Below, piece by piece: positions 2,406 through 45,683 of a stretch of DNA of 64,000 bases (position 1 is the first letter of the stretch; each line of letters begins with the position of its first letter). The translations under genes and the position numbers were made by a program. The notes below the pieces were generated by a model. The model was not told the DNA's origin. It worked only from the letters and a program-made list of their open reading frames with translations, and made no database searches. Source of the stretch: Malus domestica (taxonomy: Eukaryota; Streptophyta; Magnoliopsida; Rosales; Rosaceae); the NCBI RefSeq assembly GCF_042453785.1, contig NC_091661.1, positions 30,185,501-30,249,500 of the forward strand, read 5' to 3'.

Positions 2406-2788
2406 TCATAAAGAGGGTCCAATAAAATCTTGAATAATATAAAAAAAATTCAAACAGAACACCCTCAATTAATTGGACTTGGATTGTCTGCCCTCCTAGT
2501 TGTGGTGCCCTTCCATGCCCTCCTATTTTGTGCGGTCACGGTTAAGCCACGTTAATATTTTATATTAATTTTTTAATGAGATAATAAGATAAAAAATAAT
2601 TAAAATATAAAATATTGACGTGGTTTAACCGTGACCACACAAAATAAGAGAGCATGGAAGGGTACCACAACTAGGAGGGCAGACAATCCTTGTCCCAATT
2701 AATTTCACACTTCCACTTTAGTCAGAATCCACTGTGCCTCTGTTCCTCCAACTCCTCGTCACTCTCTCATGAGCTCCAACCTCCTTCC

Positions 2789-5251
2789 ATGGGCACCATG
2801 AACTTCCATTTTCTCTCTCTAACCATTCTCTCTCTCCTCCACTTCTCAGCCTCCTTCACTCCCTTAGACAACTACCTTTTCAACTGTGGCTCCTCCACCA
2901 ACGCCTCCGTCTTCAACCGGGTCTTCTCGGCGGACCCGTACAAGTCCGGGCGGGGCTCCATTTCCCTCGCCGACCAAAACCCACCTCCCAATTCACCTGT
3001 TCTCTACCGCACAGCCAGAGTTTTCACCAGAGCTTCGAGCTACACCTTCAGCATCAAGAAATCAGGGATCCACTTGGTACGTTTTCACTTCTCGCCGTTT
3101 GTAGCTCAGGGTTTTGATTTGAAAGCTGCAAACTTTAGCGTTTCCGTTAATGGGTTTGCTCTGTTAAGAGAATTACATGTTAGGGAATCTGTCATTAGAG
3201 AATTTGTTATAAAATTTGATGCACATGTGGTTGAAATTTTGTTTGCGCCTGTGGGTAATTCTGGGTTTTGCTATGTAAATGCCATTGAAGTTTTTACAGC
3301 TCCTGAGGATCTTGTTGTTGATTACGGTGCTAAATTCGTTGGTGCGAATGTTGTCGAATACAAGAATCTGTCTTCACAAGTTTTAGAGACCCTTTATAGG
3401 ATTAATGTTGGAGGTTCGAAATTGACACCTTTTAATGATACTTTGTGGAGGGATTGGGTCCCTGATGTCGATTATCTTGTTCTGGAATCCGCTGCGAAGT
3501 GCGCTTCCACCACGGATACTCCCAATTATCAGAGGGGCGGTGCAACTCGAGAGATTGCGCCGGATAATGTATATATGACTGCCCAGGAGATGAATACGGA
3601 TAAGGCAATTACAGGTGCAAGGTTTAATCTTACATGGAAATTTCCAGTGGATACGAATTCCGGGCATTTGGTTAGGTTGCACTTCTGTGACATTGTTAGT
3701 TCTGCACTTAATTTGTTGTACTTTAATGTGTATATCAATGGGTATGCTGCGTACAGAGATGTTGATCTGTCAGTGATGGCAGCCAATGTGCTTGCATCTC
3801 CTGTCTATATTGATTTTGTTGTGGATTCGGATGGTTCGGGGATTATAGAAATTAGCGTTGGTCCTTCTGATCTGAGTAGTTCCGTTAGGATTAATGCTAT
3901 ATTGAATGGGGCAGAGATCATGAGAATGGTGAATGTTTCCAATTTATGGGCTGGAACTGGGCGTAAGAAGAGGAGTATATGGATTTTGGTGGGCACAGTT
4001 GTTGGAGGCTTTGTTATTCTGTGTTTTGCAATTGGTGCATTTCTGCTTGCTTTGAAACGCAGAAAGAGGAAACTGAAACCCGGCCCTGCAGAAAGTGCGG
4101 TTTGGACACCTTTACGCGTATATGGAGGTAGTTCACACAGTAGAATGTCTGAAAGGACTGCACTTGCGTCTCCAGGCGCAAATGGATATCATTGCTTGAA
4201 GATCCCTTTTGCTGAATTACAATTGGCGACAAACAATTTCGATAAAAGTCTAATTGTAGGCTCTGGTGGTTTTGGCATGGTTTATAAAGGGTTCCTGAAG
4301 GACAACACAAAGGTTGCTGTGAAGAGAGGTGTGCCTGGATCTAGGCAGGGCCTTCCAGAATTCCAGACTGAAATAACGGTTTTGTCCCAAATTCGCCACC
4401 ACCATCTTGTATCACTTGTTGGGTATTGTGAAGAACAATCTGAAATGATACTAGTTTATGAATACATGGAAAAGGGGCCGTTAAAGAAACATTTGTATGG
4501 TTCGGGGATCTCACCTTTGTCCTGGAAGCAACGACTTGAAATTTGCATTGGATCAGCAAGAGGTCTTCACTACCTTCATACAGGTTTTGCTCATGGAATC
4601 ATCCACCGTGACATTAAATCAACTAACATTTTGCTTGACGAGAATTATGTGCCAAAGGTGGCCGATTTTGGTCTCTCAAGATCAGGTCCGTGTCTCAGTG
4701 AAACTCATGTAAGTACCGCTGTTAAAGGTAGTTTTGGGTATCTTGATCCTGAGTATTTCCGGAGGCAGCAGCTTACTGATAAGTCAGATGTGTATTCATT
4801 TGGGGTTGTGCTCTTTGAGGTTCTTTGCGCTAGACCTGCTGTGGATCCCTCGGTTGACAGGGAGCAGGTGAATCTAGGTGAATGGGCATTGGAATGGCAG
4901 AAGAAGGGCATGCTCGAGAAAATTATTGACCGCCACCTTGTTGGGAAGATCAAACCAAGCTCTTTGAAAAAGTTTGGAGAAACGGCAGAGAAATGTTTGG
5001 CTGATTATGGTGCCGATAGGCCAACCATTGGTGATGTATTGTGGAATTTAGAATACGCGCTTCAGCTTCAGGAATCTCGACCGCGTGGAGAACAGCCTCA
5101 AGACTGCGACATCAATGAGCCTCCGACAAATAACGTTGTTCCTGGAGATCCCTCTACCAATGTAAGAACAGAGGAAAATGGCGGTAATGGCAGTTCGGAG
5201 ATTAACACAAGCCTAGTTTTCTCTCAATTGATGACCAACGCTGGCAGATAG
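2789..5251 (+). CDS. CrRLK1L-family receptor-like kinase, At5g24010-like
   Basis: Single-exon gene of 820 codons. I start at the ATG at 2789 because it opens a clear signal peptide (about residues 1-23); the frame is open 33 codons further upstream but has no usable ATG. A malectin-like extracellular region follows (about 27-390), then one membrane segment (about 396-420) and an intracellular Ser/Thr kinase (about 485-755). The kinase has the glycine loop GSGGFG, the ATP lysine in VAVKRG, HRDIKSTN, ADFG and DPEY, so it should be active. CrRLK1L kinases sense cell-wall state and RALF peptides at the plasma membrane. The C-terminus FSQLMTNAGR and the body agree closely with what I recall of At5g24010. 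Lack of introns is typical of the family. The ligand is unknown. Confidence 0.93.
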   Translation: MGTMNFHFLSLTILSLLHFSASFTPLDNYLFNCGSSTNASVFNRVFSADPYKSGRGSISLADQNPPPNSPVLYRTARVFTRASSYTFSIKKSGIHLVRFHFSPFVAQGFDLKAANFSVSVNGFALLRELHVRESVIREFVIKFDAHVVEILFAPVGNSGFCYVNAIEVFTAPEDLVVDYGAKFVGANVVEYKNLSSQVLETLYRINVGGSKLTPFNDTLWRDWVPDVDYLVLESAAKCASTTDTPNYQRGGATREIAPDNVYMTAQEMNTDKAITGARFNLTWKFPVDTNSGHLVRLHFCDIVSSALNLLYFNVYINGYAAYRDVDLSVMAANVLASPVYIDFVVDSDGSGIIEISVGPSDLSSSVRINAILNGAEIMRMVNVSNLWAGTGRKKRSIWILVGTVVGGFVILCFAIGAFLLALKRRKRKLKPGPAESAVWTPLRVYGGSSHSRMSERTALASPGANGYHCLKIPFAELQLATNNFDKSLIVGSGGFGMVYKGFLKDNTKVAVKRGVPGSRQGLPEFQTEITVLSQIRHHHLVSLVGYCEEQSEMILVYEYMEKGPLKKHLYGSGISPLSWKQRLEICIGSARGLHYLHTGFAHGIIHRDIKSTNILLDENYVPKVADFGLSRSGPCLSETHVSTAVKGSFGYLDPEYFRRQQLTDKSDVYSFGVVLFEVLCARPAVDPSVDREQVNLGEWALEWQKKGMLEKIIDRHLVGKIKPSSLKKFGETAEKCLADYGADRPTIGDVLWNLEYALQLQESRPRGEQPQDCDINEPPTNNVVPGDPSTNVRTEENGGNGSSEINTSLVFSQLMTNAGR

Positions 5252-15385: not shown

Positions 15386-16384
15386 ATGGTCTCTCTTCAA
15401 CTCCTCCCCGCCATCCTCCACCCCAAGCCCTCCACCTCCACCTCCTCCTTCCTCAACGCCGCATATCCACTAAAAGCCTTTAAACCCAAAACCCTAAAAC
15501 CCAATCTTTCTTCTCCCTTCACAGTCCGCGCCGTCCTCCAATACAACAGGAAGCCCCAGTTGTCCGGCGACACCCCCCGCGTCGTCGTCATCACCTCCGG
15601 AAAAGGCGGCGTCGGCAAGACCACCACCACCGCCAATGTCGGCCTCTCCCTCGCCCGCCTCGGCTTCTCCGTCGTCGCCATAGACGCGGACGTCGGCCTC
15701 CGAAACCTCGACCTCCTCCTCGGCCTCGAGAACCGCGTCAACTACACCGTCGTCGAGGTCCTCAACGGCGACTGCCGCCTCGACCAGGCCCTCGTCAGGG
15801 ACAAGCGCTGGTCCAACTTCGAATTGCTCTGTATCTCGAAGCCCCGGTCCAAATTGCCAATGGGGTTCGGCGGCAAGGCCCTGGTCTGGGTCGTTGACGC
15901 CTTGAAAGCCAGGCAAGAGGGCTGCCCGGACTTCATTCTCATCGATTGCCCGGCAGGAATCGATGCCGGATTCATCACAGCCATTACGCCGGCCAATGAG
16001 GCCGTTCTGGTGACCACGCCGGACATCACGAGCTTGAGAGACGCTGACAGGGTCATTGGGCTGCTGGAGTGTGACGGAATAAGGGATATTAAGATGATGG
16101 TGAACCGGGTTCGGACGGACATGATCAAAGGGGAAGACATGATGTCGGTGCTGGATGTGCAGGAGATGTTGGGACTGGCATTGTTGGGGATGATTCCGGA
16201 GGATACGGAGGTCATCAGAAGCACCAACAGAGGGTACCCTCTGGTTTTGAACAGGCCACCCACATTGGCAGGGCTGGCTTTCGAGCAGGCGGCCTGGAGG
16301 CTTGTTGAGCAGGACAGTATGCAGGCTGTCATGGTGGAGGAAGAGCCCAAGAAGCGCGGGTTTTTCTCCTTTTTCGGAGGGTAG
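15386..16384 (+). CDS. MIND1: Plastid septum-site determining protein MinD
   Basis: Intronless, 332 residues. Residues 1 to about 50 are Ser/Pro/Lys-rich and poor in acids, typical of a chloroplast transit peptide. The ParA/MinD ATPase follows, with the deviant Walker A motif SGKGGVGKTT at residues 71-80 (both signature lysines present), the switch AIDADVGLRNLDL, and LIDCPAGID as Walker B. The end KKRGFFSFFGG is the amphipathic membrane-targeting tail of MinD. MinD works with MinE to keep the FtsZ ring at the middle of the chloroplast. The gene is very GC-rich in its 5' half compared with its surroundings. It is convergent with the MurC-like gene, with stop codons about 540 bases apart. In Arabidopsis MinD1 is At5g24020. 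Confidence 0.97.
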   Translation: MVSLQLLPAILHPKPSTSTSSFLNAAYPLKAFKPKTLKPNLSSPFTVRAVLQYNRKPQLSGDTPRVVVITSGKGGVGKTTTTANVGLSLARLGFSVVAIDADVGLRNLDLLLGLENRVNYTVVEVLNGDCRLDQALVRDKRWSNFELLCISKPRSKLPMGFGGKALVWVVDALKARQEGCPDFILIDCPAGIDAGFITAITPANEAVLVTTPDITSLRDADRVIGLLECDGIRDIKMMVNRVRTDMIKGEDMMSVLDVQEMLGLALLGMIPEDTEVIRSTNRGYPLVLNRPPTLAGLAFEQAAWRLVEQDSMQAVMVEEEPKKRGFFSFFGG

Positions 16385-16924: not shown

Positions 16925-19900
16925 TCAGTGGGGAGCAAGCTGCGAATTCACTTGTAATCTCCTTCTCAATTCATAGAGCAGCTTTGGGCCGACGGTAGTT
17001 ATATTACCTGAAAAAATCGAATAATTATTTGATTCGTAAGTTTTAGTTCAAAGTTTGTCCCTTTTTATATGAACCAGAATGATCTGAAATTAGTGAGATT
17101 AGTTTCATCAAGATTTGAGTACCTGCTCCAAGTGTTAAAACAACGATTTCCCGACGAGGGTTCTTGCATATTTGAGATGCTAACTTCTCTACAACATCGT
17201 CCTGCATATTCAACAATCTTCAAATCATCCAGTTACCCGAATCCTTCCTAGATAACCATTTGAAGCACTTATGGGTTTTTATTCGATCCTGGTATGCGAT
17301 TTTTTATCGTTTACAGTCATGTTTCGAATGCGATTTCAGACATAATTGTACCTAAAAGAACTTAAAACTTGGGTATTACCAGAGAAGGGATGTATTCAGA
17401 TGGCGGGCCAATTATCGTAGCAGCTAACTCTCTTCCGCCAACATTCTCGACATCTTTCTCTCTAGCGGCATACACCTGACATCATACTTCCAACCAATTA
17501 GCCCTTTGGCTATAAGGTAATCCAAAGACTCTGTGCTATGACAACTTACCTCTGTGACTACGACTTGATCTGCATCGCGGAGAGCATTGGTGAAGTCATC
17601 CTTCAGTGCTGTTAAACGGCTGCAAACGTATCAGTCAGTCAGTCTAGCACAAATCATACGAATCATGCTAGCGATAAAAGACTCTGCGCATTGTTCTCGT
17701 GTTGAGTGAATACCTGTAAGTATGAGGCTGGAACACGACCAAAAGAGACTTGACAGGGAACCTCTGGCGTGCAGCTTGAATTACTGCACTAACTTCTGTT
17801 GGATGATGAGCATAATCGTCATATATATGGCATCCGCATACGGCGCCAATCATCTCAAAACGTCTTGAAATGCCTATGAAATTGTTTAAGTGCAACCTCA
17901 CAAGATTGATTGTATTGTTGATTTGAAATTGGTCACTGAATAATGCCATCACAGTGGCAATAACCTGCACAATACAGCACAATTAACAGCCACAATAAGT
18001 TTACACATTACAGGGCTTGTAGTTCATTTATGCCAACAGACGAAAATCCAAAACACGAAAATCCGCCTTTAAAAATATCGAGCAAATGATGGTTATAAAT
18101 TATAATACAACACAGAACAGAAATGTGATGAGGAAAATTATACTCAGAACAGTATGCCACTCACTGCCAACGAATTAAGGACGTTATGAACTCCTGGAAT
18201 CTGTAGACTGATGTCTGCCACAGGGTGCCCGCAATGACACTGCAGGGGAAAGAGTGATTAACCAGGGAAAAGAAATTCAGTTAAGTTTCCTACACCATTT
18301 TTTTCCAGAAGAAACTGAATAATGTAGACAACAGGGGAGCATCCCGGCATGATAAGAAACCATCTTTACGTACCAGTGTATAATCACTACCACCCCTTAA
18401 ATTTGGCCTGATCGATGATGCATGCCATTCATTAGAACTTGTGGTTCCATAAGTTGTTACGTTGTAGCTATCAGAACATCTCCAGTTATCGGATCCACCT
18501 GCCCGCTTTCCATCAGTCAGCAATGAAAATGCACCTTGACTGTTGCAAACGGGAAACATTTACAAAGAGTATACTACCAAATAAATTTACATCTGTAAGA
18601 ATGGTGAGCAGAAAATACAATAGACATGTATATTGAATAACTAATGCATGCAACCGCTACCAAAGGACCAAACCAAAAATCTACACACGATGAACCATAT
18701 AGTTTTAAGTCGAATTACATCCAAAATAAGAGTTACACAACCATAAGATAAATACGAAAATGAAGAGCAGCTCGTGTAATATGCTGGATGACTTAGGAAA
18801 CTGTCATTTCTTTTGTGGTATAATGCCTGCCACTTGAACTTTCTGCTGCACCAGAAATGCAATATGCTGCCAAAATAGTCGAGCAATGTACCTGTCCCCA
18901 CATAAAATGAGATGTCCACCGACCCTGATACGGTTCAGGAATTTCCTGAAAGTAGCTTTAACCGCCTCCTCGTTTGGAAATATGTCAACATGCTCCCAAT
19001 CCAAATTTGTTACAACGGCTATAGAAGGTGATAATCCCAGGAAACAGCAATCGTATTCGTCAGCCTACTACAAACATGAAATATGTAAGTAATCTTTATG
19101 AGCAATTGAACATGAAATCGATCTACTATTGTCGATTAAGTATTAAGTAGTACAGGTTAACTAAAATTCATTTATTCCAATCAATAATAGGTTCCTAATC
19201 ATTGTTACAGAACCATGAACGGAAAATTAAATATTAGATATCTTCAGGTTTTGTTCATGCATGCTATACCATTTACTACCTCCCTTGTTTGGCCTAAACA
19301 GAATAATGTATTCCATTAAAATTTTATAGCATTTCAACCTTTAATCCTTAAAAAATACATGTCATCCTAGATTTCAAATCAAAATTTTCAACCTCGAAGG
19401 AAAAGTATACCTCCAGGACAAAATTACGACCATCACCGAAGATAATGTTTCCTCCTGAGAACTGCAAAAGACAGTTTGAATCATTTCCAACATATAATTT
19501 AAGAAAGCCAATTCCAATTACTAATGAAACGACAATCAAACACTTTATTGTAAAAGCTAATTCAAAAGAAAGTAAAAAACTATGATTTAACCATGGTGAG
19601 TGGACCGCACAAGAAAGAGTTGTTTCACATATTGCATCTGCTAAGCTCGTATTTTCTCCAAAGCTGTATAGAGAAGTAAAAGAATTGAAAATGATACCTG
19701 CGGCACATGTGCTCCAACTACTGCGGTAAGACTATCACCCATGGCATCTAGAACATAAGCAAGCATACTTGCAGTTGTACTCTTTCCTGTAAGTATTAAT
19801 ACTTATCATTATTATGCAATAATAGAAATGAAGACAAGCCAATAGTATCTTAGATTTCCCCACATTTAAATCACTACTATCACTATCATTGCATCCGTCG

Positions 19901-21447
19901 CATGATTTGATATGAAGCACGCACCCTTAGCTTCTTGGCAATATCACATTCAAGCAAATAGCCATCACATTTCACGTACTCTTTTTTTTTTTTTTTAATA
20001 AGAACTGCATTACACTCTACTGAAGCAAAAGGAAAGGGAAATCAACCAACTTATTCACATTGACAACTAGATAAGCATAATAGATTAATAATAGATAGAC
20101 CAAAGAAGACATTCCGTAAACTGATTTTGAAAATAATGTGCAGATAGCATAACAATGATTGGTGAAGATAACAGCACAGAAATATTCTTACCATGGCTAC
20201 CGCTTACAGCAATGAGATTATAGCTCTCTGTCAGCTTTCCTAACCACTGGTCTCGCTTGTACCTGTAGAAGAAAGAGGTTAAGATATGAAATCAAGCAAA
20301 ACAGTGAATGCAGCATACTTAGATAAGCAAACACTAAGTGCTCGTTTGGAAGTGCTTTTAAAATGACCGAAAGTGCTTTTGGTGAAATGTTTTTGAAACC
20401 AATCCTTAGTAAAAAACTAAGTGGATCCTGTAGAACCACTAAGTGCTTCCTGCATTGTGCTTCTTCAAAAAAGCACTTAAAGTGCTTTTGAAACCCAAAA
20501 TCTATTTCACGAAAAGCGCTTCAGTCATTCTAAAAGCACTTCCAAACGAGCCCTAAACTGTTAAAGTAACATACATAATAGCCTACTTGGTTATCCATCA
20601 ACATAGGAAGCCTAGGAACGGAATAGACAGTTGCGCACAATCTACAAACTTAGCCTATAGTAACTGCTAACAATTCGTAATTCCTACTACTACTGCTAAC
20701 ATGGTAAGAATATTTCAGTGTTTATAACATTACACACCAAAAGAAGTTCCAATTGCTTCAAATGCTAAAGTGAACAAAGATATACTCACACAGGTACTCC
20801 GACGGACTTTGCATACAAAATCTCAGCATTGTTTTGGGGAATAGCACTTGAAACAACAATGGCATCAGGTAATCTCGAGGCCCCGTTCCTTTGCAAATTG
20901 ATCACCGAATGGCCTATATGCAAAAATGCCCCTGCTTCCTGCAGCCCATCCATGAAGCTACTCCACACAATATCCGAGCCACTAACCTCATAAACCTACG
21001 AAATAAAAAACAACTCTCAAAATTCAAGAAACCCAAAAATGGTCCAGTTTTCAGAAGTCTAATGACATTCTAATACTTCCACAAAATTTCCACCATTTTC
21101 TCGGCAACCAAACAGAGAACTATAGGGTTTCAATCAAGCATTACCTGTTTGAGTGCAAGCATGGCCAGCGCAGACAACCCGCAACCTCCAATCCCCACAA
21201 AGTGAATCCAACCCTTTTCGTTTCTCAAACCATCGGATTCTCGATCGCTCTCGTCCGTGAACGCCGGCGAGTTTGAGATGCTGCCGCTGTTGTTTTTACT
21301 CGATGCTTGCACGGATTTCGCAATGCGATTGCGTTTGCACTGGGCCGAGCTCTCCCTCACAAATATCTGGAAGTCGATCTTCGGTTTTCCGATGATATTT
21401 GCCGGAAAACGGAGGCGTTCGGACGTTGACATCGCCGGGAATTCCAT
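16925..21447 (-). CDS. murC: MurC-like UDP-N-acetylmuramate-L-alanine ligase, nuclear, probably plastid
   Basis: Thirteen exons (written high to low): 21447-21145, 20995-20790, 20262-20192, 19786-19698, 19461-19411, 19064-18892, 18539-18374, 18239-18165, 17964-17714, 17619-17550, 17475-17380, 17201-17123, 17007-16925. The joined frame is 570 codons with no internal stop. The N-terminal 75 residues are Ser/Lys-rich, fitting a plastid transit peptide. FVGIGGCGLSALA (about 83-95) is the UDP-sugar binding loop, and GSHGKSTT (191-198) is the ATP loop. EADEYD (240-245) and NLDWEHVD match the central domain; HNVLNSLAV, DDYAHHPTE (427-435) and QPHTYRSR match the ligase C-domain. In bacteria MurC adds L-Ala to UDP-MurNAc. 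Mosses keep this pathway for plastid division; most flowering plants keep only parts. Introns rule out bacterial contamination. Confidence 0.9.
20338..20553. mobile_element. Tourist-like MITE inside a MurC-like intron, family C
   Basis: Inverted ends GTGCTCGTTTGGAAGTGC and GCACTTCCAAACGAGCCC, flanked by TAA on both sides (CTAA before, TAAA after). A 3-base TAA duplication and a G-rich end with GTTTGG fit PIF/Harbinger (Tourist) MITEs. It lies in the intron between exons 2 and 3 and does not touch a splice site. Confidence 0.7.
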
Positions 21448-23509
21448 CGGTGTGATGCTTTTCCCGGGAAAGTGACGGCTTTGAAGTTGGATCGTGAATT
21501 GGTAGAAATGGAAACGGATAGTTTAAAATTACAAAATGGGCTTTGTTAGGCCCATCATATTGACCCATTAACGCCCAATACCTTTTAATCACTTGAGTTG
21601 ATATCCAAAATATTTCAAATAACGTTTTTATTTTCTATGATTTTAAATTTTTCATACCTTTTATTTTCTAATTTTTTTAATTTTTTTTTTAAATGGACTA
21701 GCTGGTGGCTTTGCCACGACAGTTCATCGTTTGAGGCAGGAAATCATCACAGAGGCATTTCAACCCCCCTAGCTACTATTGTGATTCACCAGTGCCAGAA
21801 ATTGGGCTCAAAACTTGCTAAAGTTTTTGAGAAATAACACCATAAAATGAAGAATAATTCAATTTGTTTCCTCGTCCACCCATACTTGTAACCACACGTG
21901 GCATGCTTAGAATGCAATTATGCAAAACCTTTTTAAAAGAAAGAAAATTAAAGGCTCGTATTTCATACGGCACGTTATGATTTGATTCGTAGCGCTGGTG
22001 AATTATACAATGATGATTAGAAAAATATTAAAATATCTTATAAATTTTTTTAACTTTTGAAAAAATAAACTATCGCGACGAAGCTTCCATCTGGACCTTT
22101 TCAAGAGAAATATAACTGAAGGCAGTGGGAGACCAACTGACCAATGTGTCCACTAAGCACCGCCTGAATTGGCTTGTCAATTAAATTTGGTTAGACGGTT
22201 GAGAACATCAACCGACCTTGGCCACATGAAACCAATATATGAAATTATGAATACAAAGATAAGATAAAAAATACTAAAAAGAATTAGAACTTTTCAAAGA
22301 GGCACCATTAATATGAGATCAGCTGAGTAATTGATAGTTGTTGTTTCCTACCGTCAAAGGAGGAAGATGATTTGTATGAAACGGAGATGTTACAACTAAA
22401 ATTACTTGTCGTTTCGAGGGGACGACATACTCTTTGTATGGTTTTGGCAGTACTAGATAAGCAAGTCATCGATCCAAATCAGGCGTGGCTACCGTTCCAA
22501 GGCTTTTATGCCGTTGGTCAAGGGTTATTTAAGATAGGAGAATGAAGTTAAAGCCGGCTTTTGCCTAAAGCAAGTAGCATACTCTGGTTTTAGTGCACGT
22601 GTAATCGCACTTCTAGACTATCTTTTAGTGGTTTGTATTGTATAAATTGAAATGCTATCGAACCTCGAGCATCTTCTTTTTTATTTGAAAATGAAAAAAG
22701 GAGTTAACTTATGACTTCAAAATCGATCCACGAGGCGGACTGCCCTTCTTACTTGGTTTGAATTATATTATGACCTATTAACGATACTCAAAAGATCTGG
22801 TATTTCAAACAACACATTCACAAGTTCATAATGCTTAACTAATAGTTTGGATAATCCAAATTCAACTCGAATCAATTGCAAATAGAATTTTTTTCAAACT
22901 TGAATGCAAAAGTGAAGCTCAATATTCTAGTTAACTTGATTAAATTCGTGTTTATCATGTTAAACATAAATTGAGTTTACTTCAACTTAATCAAGTTAAT
23001 CAAATGTCGCAAAAAAATGAAATATATTAGATTGGATTTTAGATTCACGTCTCAACCAGTTGTATGACTAACACTACATCATTGGTATGAACACGTTTTT
23101 TTGAACAACAAATAGTTTCTCCCTCAATTGGAAGTCAACTATATATTAATCCAATATTCAAATTATTGGAAATCTTACATCATCATTGTGATACATTCTT
23201 ATCCCATATTAGTATACTTTTTCCTTTTTTTAAGGGATTAAGGTCAATATCAAATAGGTCTATTTGGTGGGCTGGATGAAATATGATTGGATCAAGAGAC
23301 ATGTAAGACAAGATTTGTAACACATGCATAAAGATATGTTAGATAACTCATTTTATTGTGAATTTGTAACATATCATGTCAAGTCTTAACCATCTCATAT
23401 TTTTGACACAACAAACAAGAAAATGAACGCAAGCCCATTTTAATTAATCACGACCTATTCAACCAGCCACCAAACATGCCCATAAAGATAAAGGAAAATT
23501 AATGAAAAT

Positions 23510-23648
23510 GGCTTGAAAACTTTGAGTTTTAATGATAAGGACAAAATAAAGTGTAAAGTGAATAGTAACAGGATTGACTTTTTAGTGTAAAAATGTGGTT
23601 TTTCGTTAAAGTGAACGGTACCGGGTGCTTTTCGTTAAAGTTCCCTAA
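23510..23648 (+). repeat. Dispersed repeat E, copy 2
   Basis: Reads from AAAATGGCTTGAAAACTTTG to GCTTTTCGTTAAAGTTCCC. It is the reverse complement of the repeat at 1060-1215 with modest divergence. Its core is AAAAATGTGGTTTTTCGTT. Non-coding. Confidence 0.6.
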
Positions 23649-32714: not shown

Positions 32715-35493
32715 ATGGTGCCCTCAAAATTTCATGTAAGTACTCTTCTTTTCCACAAATGATTTCAATCCTATTTTGTGTGTGTGTTAATTTGCTTGTT
32801 TTTTGGGGTTAAACTTTCAACTTTTAGCGGTGTCATTTTCATTTGTCAAATTTGAAAGTGACGTCCCAGTGTTTCAACACCGATATTGCTCCCAACCTGA
32901 ATTATTTTAAAAGACTACAGTGTAATTAGGGATGAAACCATGTATGATATGCTGTAATTTGTTTTTATCAATTTTCCCAATAGGGAATTTTCAAAATCAT
33001 TCCCACTTTTTAAGTTCAATATTATATTTTAGTCTAATCTAAATTACTGGGATGAGGACGCTCTTGCCACCGGTCCAGTTTGTTACATATTTTGTTTAGA
33101 ATGCCATATTTTATTGACAAATTTATGTTGTTTTTAACAATTACAGGTTGCTTCTGCGATTATTGCTGTGTTGGGATTACTCTTCCTAACAGCGGCAGAA
33201 TGTCGAAAACCGATTTCGAACACGGTCAAGTACTCGGCCATTAACTGTAGAAAACACAGTGCTCTTTTGACTGACTTTGGAGCCGTTGGCGACGGAGAAA
33301 CTTCCAACACAAAGGCCTTCAAGGCGGCCGTCGGTCATCTAAGCCAGTTGGCATCTGACGGCGGAGCGCAGCTTATTGTGCCGCCAGGGAGGTGGCTTAC
33401 CGGGAGCTTCAACCTTACCAGCCACTTCACTCTCTTCCTCCACAAGGATGCCGTTATTCTTGCAACTCAGGTTTGAATGTGTTGTCTTTGTTTTGTGTGA
33501 TATTTCTTCAGTTGTTTTTCTTTTGGTATATATATTTTGGGCTTGTTTGACATAAGTAAGGTTCTAAACCGTGCTAGTCGAAAGACGGATAGGGTTTCAC
33601 GCCTAGGTTTTAAGCGGAGTTTGGCGCTAGTCGGGTGACCGGTAGATAATGATTGTATATTTCTCATATTAAACACAGGATGAGTCAGAGTGGCCTCATC
33701 TTCCGGCGCTGCCTTCATACGGGAAAGGCAGAGATGGCCCCGGTGAAAGGTTTAGCAGTCTCATCTTCGGAACAAACCTCACCGACGTCGTAATTACCGG
33801 TCACAACGGCACCATCGACGGCCAAGGTGCTTCCTGGTGGGCAAAGTTCAAACAAGGTCTGTTGAACAGCACCCGACCATACGTGATCGAGCTCATGTAC
33901 TCTGATCAGATCCAAATTTCTAATCTCACTTTGGTCAACTCTCCTTCGTGGTTTGTCCATCCCATATACAGCAGGTAATTTGACTCTTTTTTTTAACTAA
34001 CGCACGACAGCCGCATCAACATGTAGTAGTGTTACTCACGTCACAATGATGGCTACTCTCAAAAATTCCTTGCACTATACATGCATATATATATTATATG
34101 TGGATCCGTGACATTATTGTTTTTACACAATTTTTGACACAAGTTTTTGTGAGGTTTAATTTGTAATGTATTGTAGCAATCCGAACGGTCTTCTCTCAAA
34201 GATTATGTCTATAGTCAACCTAAAATCACCAAAATCTGAAAATATATCATCAATGGATTAAGGGTTAAGAGTTTCTTTGTAAAATCTTATGCGTTCATTT
34301 TTTTTTTGCTATAAATGAATGTTTTAATGGTTTTGGATTTGTCTAATTTTGTGCATAGATGATCTATGAATGATGTTTAAAGAGAGATATGGTTTGGGTG
34401 GTTAAAATATATTACGGAGTGGATACCCAAAAACCTAAATGTGTTTTTACCATTAATCTTGTTCTAATTTTGCAGCAATATAACAATTCAAGGGCTCACA
34501 ATCCTTGCACCCATTGAGGTTCCCAACACCGATGGGATTAACCCAGGTTTGTTATTTTTGCTGCCAGTTAATTTGTTCTTGTTGTTGCTCATTAGTGCTT
34601 AATTGGGAAATGAACATGATTAAAAGGCGACTCTAAGTCAACAAGGCTCATTGTTTTGCAAGGCTCAGGGAAAACGTCTATCATACGCTGCCTTATCCTT
34701 GTTTTGCAAAGAGACTGTTTCCACGTCTCGAACCCGTGACCTTTCTGTTACTTAACTATAAATCTCTATGCTTCCTTCAGATTCTTGTTCACAAATTAGA
34801 ATTGAAGACTGCTACATAGTCTCTGGAGATGACTGCATTGCGGTAAAGAGTGGATTTGATGAATACGGAATCAAGGTCGGAATCCCGACGGAGCACCTTG
34901 TGATCAGAAGGCTCACTTGCATTTCCCCTTCCAGTGCCACCATTGCCCTCGGCAGTGAAATGTCAGGCGGAATCCGCGACGTTAGAGCTGAGGACATCAC
35001 AGCCATTGATACTGAATCAAGTGTGAGGATCAAAACTGCCGTCGGAAGAGGAGGTTATGTCAAAGACATTTATGTGAGAAGAATGACCTTGAAGACGATG
35101 AAGTACGTTTTCTGGATGACCGGCTCTTATGGATCGCACCCTGACCCCGGCTTTGATCCTAAAGCGTTGCCTGAGATTACAAACATCAACTACAAGCAGG
35201 TTGTGGCAGAAAATGTTACTATTTCTGCAAGGCTGGACGGAATCCATGATGATCCCTTCAAGGGAATTTGCATTTCGAACGTGACCATCACACTGGCTGA
35301 GAAGGCGAAGAAATTGCAATGGAACTGCACTGATGTCGAGGGAATCACAAGCAACGTGACCCCAAAGGCGTGCGATTTGTTGCCCGAGCAGAAAGAAGCG
35401 GTTGATTGTGCTTTCCCTGAGGATAGGCTGGCGATCGAGGATGTTGAGTTGGTGACTTGCTCTGCAAGCACCCCCTTCTTCCGAGTGTGTTAG
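32715..35493 (+). CDS. GH28 polygalacturonase-like protein, secreted
   Basis: Five exons: 32715-32735, 33147-33470, 33679-33974, 34476-34546, 34781-35493; 474 residues. The first exon encodes only MVPSKFH, and the second supplies the hydrophobic core of the signal peptide (AIIAVLGLLFLTAAEC). The right-handed beta-helix has GH28 motifs NTDGINPDSC (from residue 231), SGDDCIAVKSG (252-262) and RIKTAVG. The usual GHG motif is replaced by GSEMSGG, as in a plant subfamily I recall (At3g61490 and At4g23500 type). Members are thought to act on pectin in the cell wall, but loss of the motif's histidine makes classic hydrolase activity uncertain. It converges with the receptor-like kinase at 35803. Its introns carry a SINE fragment and another repeat. 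Confidence 0.93.
33540..33665. repeat. Dispersed repeat in intron 2 of the polygalacturonase-like gene
   Basis: Contains AGGTTCTAAACCGTGCTAG, CGCCTAGGTTTTAAGCGG and GGCGCTAGTCGGGTG. This CTAGGCG-rich wording is typical of a common plant interspersed repeat. No ends could be fixed. Confidence 0.3.
34620..34745 (-). mobile_element. Au-like SINE fragment in the last intron of the polygalacturonase-like gene
   Basis: On the minus strand it reads AGGTCACGGGTTCGAGACG (pol III box B), GGAAACAGTCTCTTTGC and GGATAAGGCAGCGTATGATA. This matches the plant Au SINE order. It ends about 35 bases before the exon 5 acceptor without altering it. Confidence 0.6.
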
Positions 35494-42842: not shown

Positions 42843-45683
42843 ATGGCCGACGTTCAGATGCACGACGCTGAGACCTTCGCCTTCCAGGCCGAGATCAACC
42901 AGCTTCTGAGCTTGATCATCAACACTTTCTACAGCAACAAGGAGATCTTCCTTCGTGAGCTCATCAGCAATTCATCTGATGTGAGTCTCTCCTCTCCGTT
43001 TCTTGCATGTTTTCGTTTCGATTCACCGTATAAATTTGTACGATTTTCCTCCCCAATTTTCCGATAAATCGCTGTGTTGGCGTTTAAAACCCTGATTTTC
43101 GAAGTATAATACGTTCTGTGACAATGTAGTATTGGTTTTTGCTCTTTAATTTACAACTAATATTGATTTGGTTTCATTTTTTTCCACAATTTAATGATTA
43201 ATCACTATGTTTTGTGGTCAATAATCTTGTTTCTGGATTAAAATTTGTTTCCGCGATAAAGTGTGATCTGGAATTTGTAGGATTTTGAGATTGATTGATT
43301 TTTGTTTTTCTCTTAGGCTTTGGACAAAATTCGTTTCGAGAGCCTCACAGACAAAAGCAAGCTCGATGCTCAGCCGGAGCTTTTTATCAGGCTGGTGCCT
43401 GACAAGGCTAACAAGACCCTCTCAATCATTGACAGTGGCATCGGCATGACCAAAGCAGGTATGTATTTGTGTAAATTGCACTTCCTTACTTATCTTATCG
43501 ATCTGTTTGGCTTTCGAGAAAATCCAAGAAAATCCATTAGCATATACCTTTTGATTAGTAAAATTGTGCATTCTGTATTTAAGCTGGCTCCCCTGTTTAT
43601 ATGTATTGTATGATTGTTTCTGTAGACGCTTACAATTGTTCAAAAATCAGAACTTTGGTTATGGAATGCTTAACTAATTATTCTTGGCGTTTTGTTAATT
43701 ACGTAGTCATCGTTTATGATTATGTTAATAAGCTGTGAATCTGATTGCAATTGGTTTCTGTAGATTTGGTGAACAACTTGGGTACAATTGCAAGGTCTGG
43801 AACCAAAGAATTCATGGAGGCATTGCAAGCCGGAGCCGATGTGAGCATGATTGGTCAGTTTGGTGTCGGTTTCTACTCGGCCTATCTCGTTGCTGAGAAG
43901 GTCATTGTGACCACCAAGCACAATGACGACGAGCAGTACATCTGGGAGTCACAGGCTGGTGGTTCCTTCACTGTCACAAGGGATGTCAATGGCGAACCGC
44001 TCGGCAGGGGCACCAAGATCACCCTCTTCCTCAAGGAGGATCAGGTAAAGAATTGAGCCAATGTTTTAAGTCTTTAATTATATAATTAAGAAGAAGAGTT
44101 GGGTATTAATTCGTTTTTGTGATTGTGATCAGTTGGAGTATTTGGAAGAGAGGAGGGTCAAGGATCTTGTGAAGAAGCACTCTGAGTTCATCAGCTATCC
44201 AATCTATCTCTGGACCGAGAAGACTACCGAGAAGGAGATCAGTGACGACGAAGACGAAGATACCAAGAAGGAAGAGGAAGGAGATGTTGAGGAGGTTGAT
44301 GAGGACAAGGAGAAGACATCAAAGAAGAAGAAGATCAAGGAGGTTTCTCACGAGTGGCAGCTCATCAACAAGCAGAAACCCATCTGGCTCCGAAAGCCCG
44401 AAGAAATCACCAAGGAGGAGTACGCTGCCTTCTACAAGAGCTTGACCAATGACTGGGAGGAGCACCTTGCTGTCAAGCATTTCTCAGTCGAAGGCCAGCT
44501 CGAATTCAAGGCCATCCTCTTCGTCCCGAAGAGGGCTCCTTTCGATCTTTTCGACACTAGGAAGAAGATGAACAACATCAAGCTCTATGTCAGGAGGGTG
44601 TTCATCATGGACAATTGCGAGGAGCTGATTCCGGAGTACCTCGGATTCGTGAAGGGTGTCGTCGATTCGGATGATTTGCCTCTCAACATCTCTCGTGAGA
44701 CGCTGCAACAGAACAAGATTTTGAAGGTGATCAGGAAGAACCTTGTGAAGAAATGTATTGAGATGTTCAATGAGATTACTGAGAACAAAGAGGATTACGC
44801 CAAGTTCTACGAAGCCTTCTCCAAGAATTTGAAATTGGGCATCCATGAGGACAGCCAGAACAGAGCCAAATTGGCCGATCTCCTCCGCTACCACTCGACC
44901 AAGAGCGGTGACGAGGTGACAAGCCTGAAGGACTACGTGACCAGAATGAAGGAGGGTCAGAAGGACATTTACTACATCACCGGAGAATCGAAGAAGGCGG
45001 TGGAGAACTCTCCGTTCTTGGAGCGCCTGAAGAAGAAGGGCTACGAAGTTCTTTACATGGTGGATGCCATTGACGAATATGCCGTCGGACAATTGAAGGA
45101 ATACGACGGCAAGAAGCTGGTGTCCGCCACCAAGGAGGGTCTCAAACTCGATGACGAGACAGAGGAAGAGAAGAAGGCAAAAGAGGAGAAGAAGAAGTCA
45201 TTTGAGAACCTCTGCAAGACAATGAAGGACATTCTGGGAGACAGGGTCGAGAAGGTGGTGGTTTCCGACAGGATTGTCGACTCGCCCTGCTGCTTGGTGA
45301 CCGGAGAATACGGGTGGACGGCCAACATGGAGAGGATCATGAAGGCGCAGGCGCTGCGGGACAACAGCATGAGCTCCTACATGTCGAGCAAGAAGACGAT
45401 GGAGATCAACCCGGACAACGGAATCATGGAGGAGCTGAGGAAGAGGGCGGAGGCTGACAAGAATGACAAATCCGTGAAGGACCTCGTGCTGCTGCTGTTC
45501 GAGACTGCTCTGCTGACCTCCGGCTTCAGCCTGGATGACCCCAACACTTTCGCGGCGAGAATTCACCGGATGTTGAAGCTGGGGCTGAGCATTGAGGAGG
45601 AGGAGATCGGCGGCGATGATACTGACATGCCTGCTCTGGAGGAGGACGGTGCTGAGGAGAGCAAGATGGAGGAGGTGGACTAA
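42843..45683 (+). CDS. HSP90: Cytosolic heat shock protein HSP90
   Basis: Four exons: 42843-42980, 43317-43458, 43764-44044, 44133-45683; 703 residues, the normal length. The N-terminal ATP domain has the signature [15 protein letters not shown] split by intron 1, [11 protein letters not shown], and [14 protein letters not shown] charged Glu/Asp/Lys linker spans about residues 215-255. The middle domain has the catalytic-loop region [17 protein letters not shown], and the C-terminus is MEEVD, the dock for TPR co-chaperones. This marks it as cytosolic. It folds kinases, receptors and other clients. Exon 4 is GC-rich with strongly biased codons, fitting high expression. There is no sign of damage. 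Confidence 0.98.

Follow-up and report, generated by a model that had tools for sequence, protein, structure and literature searches.

The window analysed here, a stretch of 64,000 nucleotides from the domestic apple (Malus domestica, contig NC_091661.1), belongs to contig 1 of an assembly that totals 651 Mb in 19 contigs and contains a gene for MurC, a ligase of the peptidoglycan (PGN)-precursor pathway. The gene occupies the minus strand (21447..16925, in window coordinates, as throughout), running from an ATG at 21447 to a TGA that ends at 16925. Its thirteen exons (303, 206, 71, 89, 51, 173, 166, 75, 251, 70, 96, 79 and 83 bases) are separated by twelve GT-AG introns, and the splice phases rebuild one open frame with a spliced coding length of 1713 bases—570 codons and a single stop. 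An earlier note, made from the letters of the sequence alone, had given the same coordinates, thirteen exons and 570 codons, which match our rebuilt model exactly; the three motifs that it had named are all present in the spliced protein: GIGGCG at residues 85-90, GSHGKSTT at 191-198 and DDYAHHPTE at 427-435.

Three Mur ligase domains follow one another in the protein in the order PF01225 (residues 81-184), PF08245 (189-382) and PF02875 (412-544). Exon 1 (21145..21447, minus strand, as are all the others) supplies the start codon, an N-terminal extension of ~76 residues—a putative plastid transit peptide—and then the GIGGCG loop. The N-terminal (UDP-sugar) domain occupies exon 2 (20790..20995) and ends in exon 3 (20192..20262), which also begins the ATP loop (GSH); the remainder of that loop, GKSTT, is encoded by exon 4 (19698..19786), its G being split across the junction. 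The central domain extends through exon 5 (19411..19461), the last residue of which is E240, exon 6 (18892..19064), with E243 and H265, exon 7 (18374..18539) and exon 8 (18165..18239), with an HNVLN motif that includes N372 and N375. The C-terminal ligase domain begins in exon 9 (17714..17964), home to the RRF and DDYAHHPTE motifs, and continues through exon 10 (17550..17619), exon 11 (17380..17475) and exon 12 (17123..17201), where a GAGN motif starts; exon 13 (16925..17007) holds the remainder of that motif, the C-terminus and the stop codon. Within intron 2, at 20337-20554, a pair of 35-base inverted repeats with 91% complementarity, separated by 148 bases, has the look of a miniature inverted-repeat transposable element.

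Identification as MurC draws on family models and solved structures. The NCBI murC equivalog model TIGR01082 scored 383.8 bits against a cut-off of 335.1 (E = 1.3e-114), while all other Mur models remained below their own cut-offs: Mpl at 182 bits (cut-off 388.7), MurD at 59.8, MurE models at 57.3 or less and MurF at 40. Thirteen of the 17 Protein Data Bank matches, which are also the top 13, are named UDP-N-acetylmuramate-(L-)alanine ligase, and each of two solved MurC chains compared is 36% identical to the plant protein. A non-Mur ligase as best match, an outcome that the earlier note had said would change its call, was checked for and ruled out by the NCBIfam equivalog scores and the solved-structure matches, MurC being best. 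Both the equivalog model and the solved-structure matches place the start of MurC homology at residue 77-81; ahead of it, the first 60 residues include 12 S/T, 10 R/K and 4 D/E. The ~76-residue extension sets the plant protein apart from bacterial MurC and may direct its import into the plastid.

For comparison with bacteria, at least 587 relatives were matched and 80 kept, with 33-40% identity to plant MurC over the best segment; six of these were dropped for stops within the matched span, leaving 74 MurC sequences. At 54 of the 58 columns conserved in ≥95% of the 74, the plant protein carries the identical residue. It also keeps K195, E240, E243, H265, N372, N375, R413, D428 and H431-H432-P433. 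Seven of these—K195, E240, H265, N372, N375, R413 and D428—correspond to what we take to be the invariant residues of Mur ligases (P-loop Lys, Glu, His, two Asn, Arg and Asp), and each is the same residue in 72 to 74 of the 74 bacterial proteins. The three-domain layout and every catalytic position checked are thus common to plant and bacterial MurC (TIGR01082; 9ir5, 6cau, 1gqq), and the call of a complete MurC made in the earlier note is borne out by the equivalog score, the ordered domains and the kept catalytic positions. In a tree of the 74 bacterial sequences and the plant MurC, the latter stood beside four Chloroflexota rows and apart from three cyanobacterial-type rows; as this placement is weakly supported (90/52) and the plant branch long, we do not read the origin of MurC from it.

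Evidence on selection comes from a decayed duplicate of the gene. Duplicated segments in this genome pair contigs 1 and 7, 3 and 11, 5 and 10, and 6 and 14, and a genome search with the MurC protein returned 16 matches, twelve in the window gene and four on contig 7, in a segment collinear with the window. Next to MurC in the window, and tail-to-tail with it, lies MinD, the plastid division-site ATPase (15386..16384, plus strand), a single open frame of 332 aa that scored 318.4 bits with TIGR01968 against a cut-off of 212.9. The MinD of contig 7 is likewise complete, with 328 codons and a single terminal stop, and its protein is 94.9% identical to that of the window. Because the same neighbourhood occurs on contig 7, the adjacency of MinD and MurC predates the duplication; it is probably a coincidence, though both genes concern plastid division or its wall. 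The contig-7 MurC is a relic: in a BLAST comparison of the coding sequence, exons 1, 10 and 11 were recovered whole, exon 2 over 165 of its 206 bases and exon 9 over 114 of 251, with no trace of the other eight of the thirteen (exons 3 to 8, 12 and 13), bar one exon-12 base at the edge of a match. Its exon 1 is interrupted by an in-frame stop, has lost 43 bases in one deletion and has gained a single inserted base.

Comparison of the two MurC copies was possible at 229 of the 570 codons, one being skipped as a stop. The MurC and MinD pairs have the same synonymous divergence (dS), 0.25, which is consistent with a single duplication behind both. The ratio of non-synonymous to synonymous divergence (dN/dS) for the MurC pair is 0.42 over the 229 codons (Fisher p = 3e-4), falling to 0.31 over the 164 codons of the core beyond residue 80 (Fisher p = 1.1e-4 against no constraint) and rising to 0.71 over the 65 codons of the N-terminal extension, a value not distinguishable from 1 (Fisher p = 0.49). 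For the MinD pair, in which both copies have been kept, dN/dS is 0.076. The MurC value therefore lies between that of MinD and 1, as expected if one copy was constrained while the other drifted. Neutral decay by base substitution was also simulated at 0.125 changes per site, half the dS of the pair, with three transition biases and 2000 runs per bias: a stop-free frame survived in 0.05-0.4% of runs, odds that indels would lower further, and the probability that all 48 splice bases would stay intact under the same divergence is 0.0025. Together, these comparisons indicate past selection on the contig-1 MurC in the time after the genome duplication, during which the other copy fell apart. The earlier note had held that an intact MurC implies selection; for past selection, the relic, the dN/dS values and the simulation support that statement.

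The same genome was searched exon by exon for the rest of the pathway; MurC alone was modelled exon by exon, so that the other genes are reported as exon-level matches, and ten open frames from the matched places were scanned against NCBIfam. The earlier note had suggested looking for MurA, MurB, MurD, MurF, MraY and MurG, and exons of all of them were found; with MurC and MurE, exon-level matches exist for all eight. MurA exons lie on contig 3, where the frame scored best with MurA models and EPSPS far behind; contig 11 has a MurA piece, and contigs 15 and 10 have one additional stretch each. These last two (contig 15:10749311-10749865 and contig 10:31734605-31735207) are intronless and each spans no more than the central part of the MurA model, from which we infer that they are retrocopies or fragments; an EPSPS identity for them was ruled out by the family scan, which named both MurA. 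MurB matches fall on contigs 5 and 10, with MurB the top-scoring family for each of the two contig-5 frames, and MurF matches on contig 13, where the two frames scanned have MurF as their best family. Contigs 6 and 14 carry Mur ligase matches, and the contig-6 frame is MurE, with 354.6 bits against a cut-off of 257.3. The MurD exons, on contig 12, are the weakest of the set at 28-42 bits per exon, and two of the three frames scanned there are best to MurD (34 and 42 bits), the third being without any match. MraY matches lie on contigs 5 and 10; the MurG model matched contigs 6 and 14 and, more weakly, contigs 16 and 12. Taken singly, the exons of MurA, MurD, MraY and MurG are each under the whole-protein cut-offs. 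Three exons of a transglycosylase domain (PF00912) lie at contig 8:19856330-19861294, and the one scanned is best to the PBP1A family.

Such a gene set has precedents. The PGN pathway, minus the penicillin-binding protein (PBP), has been described in multiple vascular plants, with all genes expressed, though not in every species, along with a LysM-transmembrane protein, PPASP (van Baren et al., 2016, PMC4815162). Within the Rosales, Fragaria vesca is listed with a four-gene set and Malus domestica with the full set minus PBP (PMC9954125); apple, ‘wine’ (grapevine), tomato and cocoa are named among plants with the Mur set (PMC7432710), and the toolkit is present in Thuja, Asparagus and Citrus (PMC10784329), while MurA was found in two of six sampled angiosperms (PMC11588093). 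The surprise implied by the earlier note rested on Arabidopsis, a species with four genes of the pathway (PMC4815162), and does not survive these reports of near-complete sets, Malus domestica by name among them (PMC9954125, PMC7432710, PMC4815162). As published angiosperm sets already include Malus domestica, neither the gene in the window nor the set to which it belongs is new.

The angiosperms with the full set minus PBP (among them Malus domestica, Carica papaya, Citrus sinensis and Asparagus officinalis; PMC9954125, PMC7432710) resemble the present case in carrying a nuclear MurC beside other Mur genes and a transglycosylase domain without a transpeptidase, and we found no difference from them, plant MurC sequences lying outside the comparison. 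Nine Mur genes without a bifunctional PBP are reported from such plants, as is a transglycosylase-only gene, found there and in several crops (PMC12681378), which our contig-8 exons, in a genome where the transpeptidase search found no match, fit. Physcomitrium patens and Picea abies share a like gene set through lipid II synthesis (PMC9434261, PMC12681378), but published accounts give both moss and spruce MurJ as well as a bifunctional PBP (PMC12681378), whereas our searches of this genome found no MurJ and no transpeptidase. One publication, whose MurC tree includes angiosperm sequences, states that the plant enzymes did not come from cyanobacteria (PMC7231273), as does a further report for most plant pathway enzymes (PMC8227023).

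What this analysis adds is evidence that the contig-1 MurC was preserved by selection while its duplicate decayed; in literature searches not worded for that point, we found no published account of a decayed MurC duplicate or of such a selection test. Click chemistry has been reported to show rings around the chloroplasts of Arabidopsis and of Nicotiana benthamiana (PMC9954125). Whether flowering-plant plastids still make PGN is an open question, and the worry that some plant Mur genes might be pseudogenes has been published, a status that, according to PMC12681378, cannot be ruled out. An intact and a wrecked member of one syntenic pair within a single genome are a direct sign of an angiosperm MurC under selection after genome duplication, and make apple-like plants useful test subjects.

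We consider it quite probable, from the sequence and its genomic context, that the gene encodes a nuclear UDP-N-acetylmuramate:L-alanine ligase, probably plastid-imported, in a retained PGN-precursor pathway. Between the two options offered by the earlier note, a residual PGN pathway and a new ligase role, the former is favoured over a lone repurposed gene because exons of other early Mur genes occur in the same genome. In the proposed scheme, the N-terminal extension would be cleaved upon import, and the mature enzyme would catalyse the third soluble step of the pathway, the ATP-driven joining of L-alanine to UDP-MurNAc, with the first domain binding UDP-MurNAc, the central domain ATP and the C-terminal domain L-Ala. 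The chemistry of Mur ligases, an acyl phosphate attacked by an amino acid, is established and is applied here to the plant MurC by inference; its product, UDP-MurNAc-L-Ala, would pass to MurD.

Several observations weigh against a working MurC in a retained pathway. Four near-invariant bacterial columns differ in the plant protein—S196 (Ser for Thr in GKT), L213 (for P), A219 (for G) and I536. Residue 102, the first codon of exon 2 (20993-20995), is V, in place of the G of the contig-7 relic and of 63 of the 74 bacteria; G102V is possibly a mild lesion, or a change in the working copy. With these differences, function may have been partly lost or altered. Exon-wise genome searches returned no match to the transpeptidase PF00905 and none to MurJ, the lipid II flippase, although little weight can be put on the MurJ negative because short exons can escape such a search. 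With neither found, a complete cross-linked wall is unlikely, and because a transglycosylase domain but no transpeptidase was detected, the pathway would end in lipid II or uncross-linked glycan. These deviant residues and the partners that gave no match would also suit an exapted ligase, in which the MurC fold has been kept for another substrate or a structural-subunit role; there is a precedent in angiosperm MurE, which serves the plastid RNA polymerase complex as its component PAP11 (PMC12681378). We nevertheless think exaptation unlikely: every catalytic position checked is kept, and MurA, MurB, MurD and MurF, the products of which feed or follow MurC, have exons in this genome that a lone repurposed MurC would not need.

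The selection data have their own weak points. If both copies were constrained until the twin died, the dN/dS of the pair would likewise be lowered. At 0.02 changes per site, the simulated frame survived by chance in 26-38% of runs, so a recent release from selection would not show yet, and selection could have relaxed recently without trace. A polarity test was not significant: at the 23 differing positions, the residue commoner in bacteria is in the contig-1 copy at 15 and in the relic at eight. MurC might then be a recent relic, functional until lately and now drifting with its frame still unbroken, as the broken twin, G102V and those eight positions would allow; but 570 codons and twelve introns have stayed intact through ~0.125 changes per neutral site and the core dN/dS of the pair is low, which leaves this explanation somewhat less likely still than exaptation. 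As for bacterial contamination or an assembly artefact, nothing was found in its favour. The gene has twelve spliceosomal introns, sits within an assembly of 651 Mb and has a syntenic counterpart, the relic, on another contig, and the 80 bacterial relatives kept are no more than 33-40% identical; this rules it out for practical purposes, introns and synteny being decisive.

A bolder extension of the retained-pathway reading, which we put forward tentatively and rather doubt, is that apple-type plants make real uncross-linked plastid PGN (or free lipid II) under selection, with pathway dosage as if held in step. The idea arises because the syntenic twins of MurA, MurB, MurC and MurE have been lost or broken while MinD kept both copies. 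On contig 10, MurB shows frame breaks and stops relative to the contig-5 exons; on contig 14, MurE has several stops relative to the open contig-6 frame; and the contig-11 MurA matches the contig-3 gene along one stretch only, of 317 columns, within 9.5 kb of contig 11. With the MurC relic, one member is thus broken or fragmentary in all four of these pairs. The pattern is suggestive only, because a return to one copy is common among duplicated genes, and the two extra, intronless MurA-like stretches weaken the single-copy argument.

Elsewhere in the window, other genes include a malectin-like receptor kinase (2690-5251), a piece of a polygalacturonase of family GH28 (34768-35493) and an HSP90 (44133-45683). 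One dispersed repeat occurs twice, at 1059-1228 and 23490-23645, in opposite orientation, and both copies match one and the same set of three sites in the segment on contig 7.

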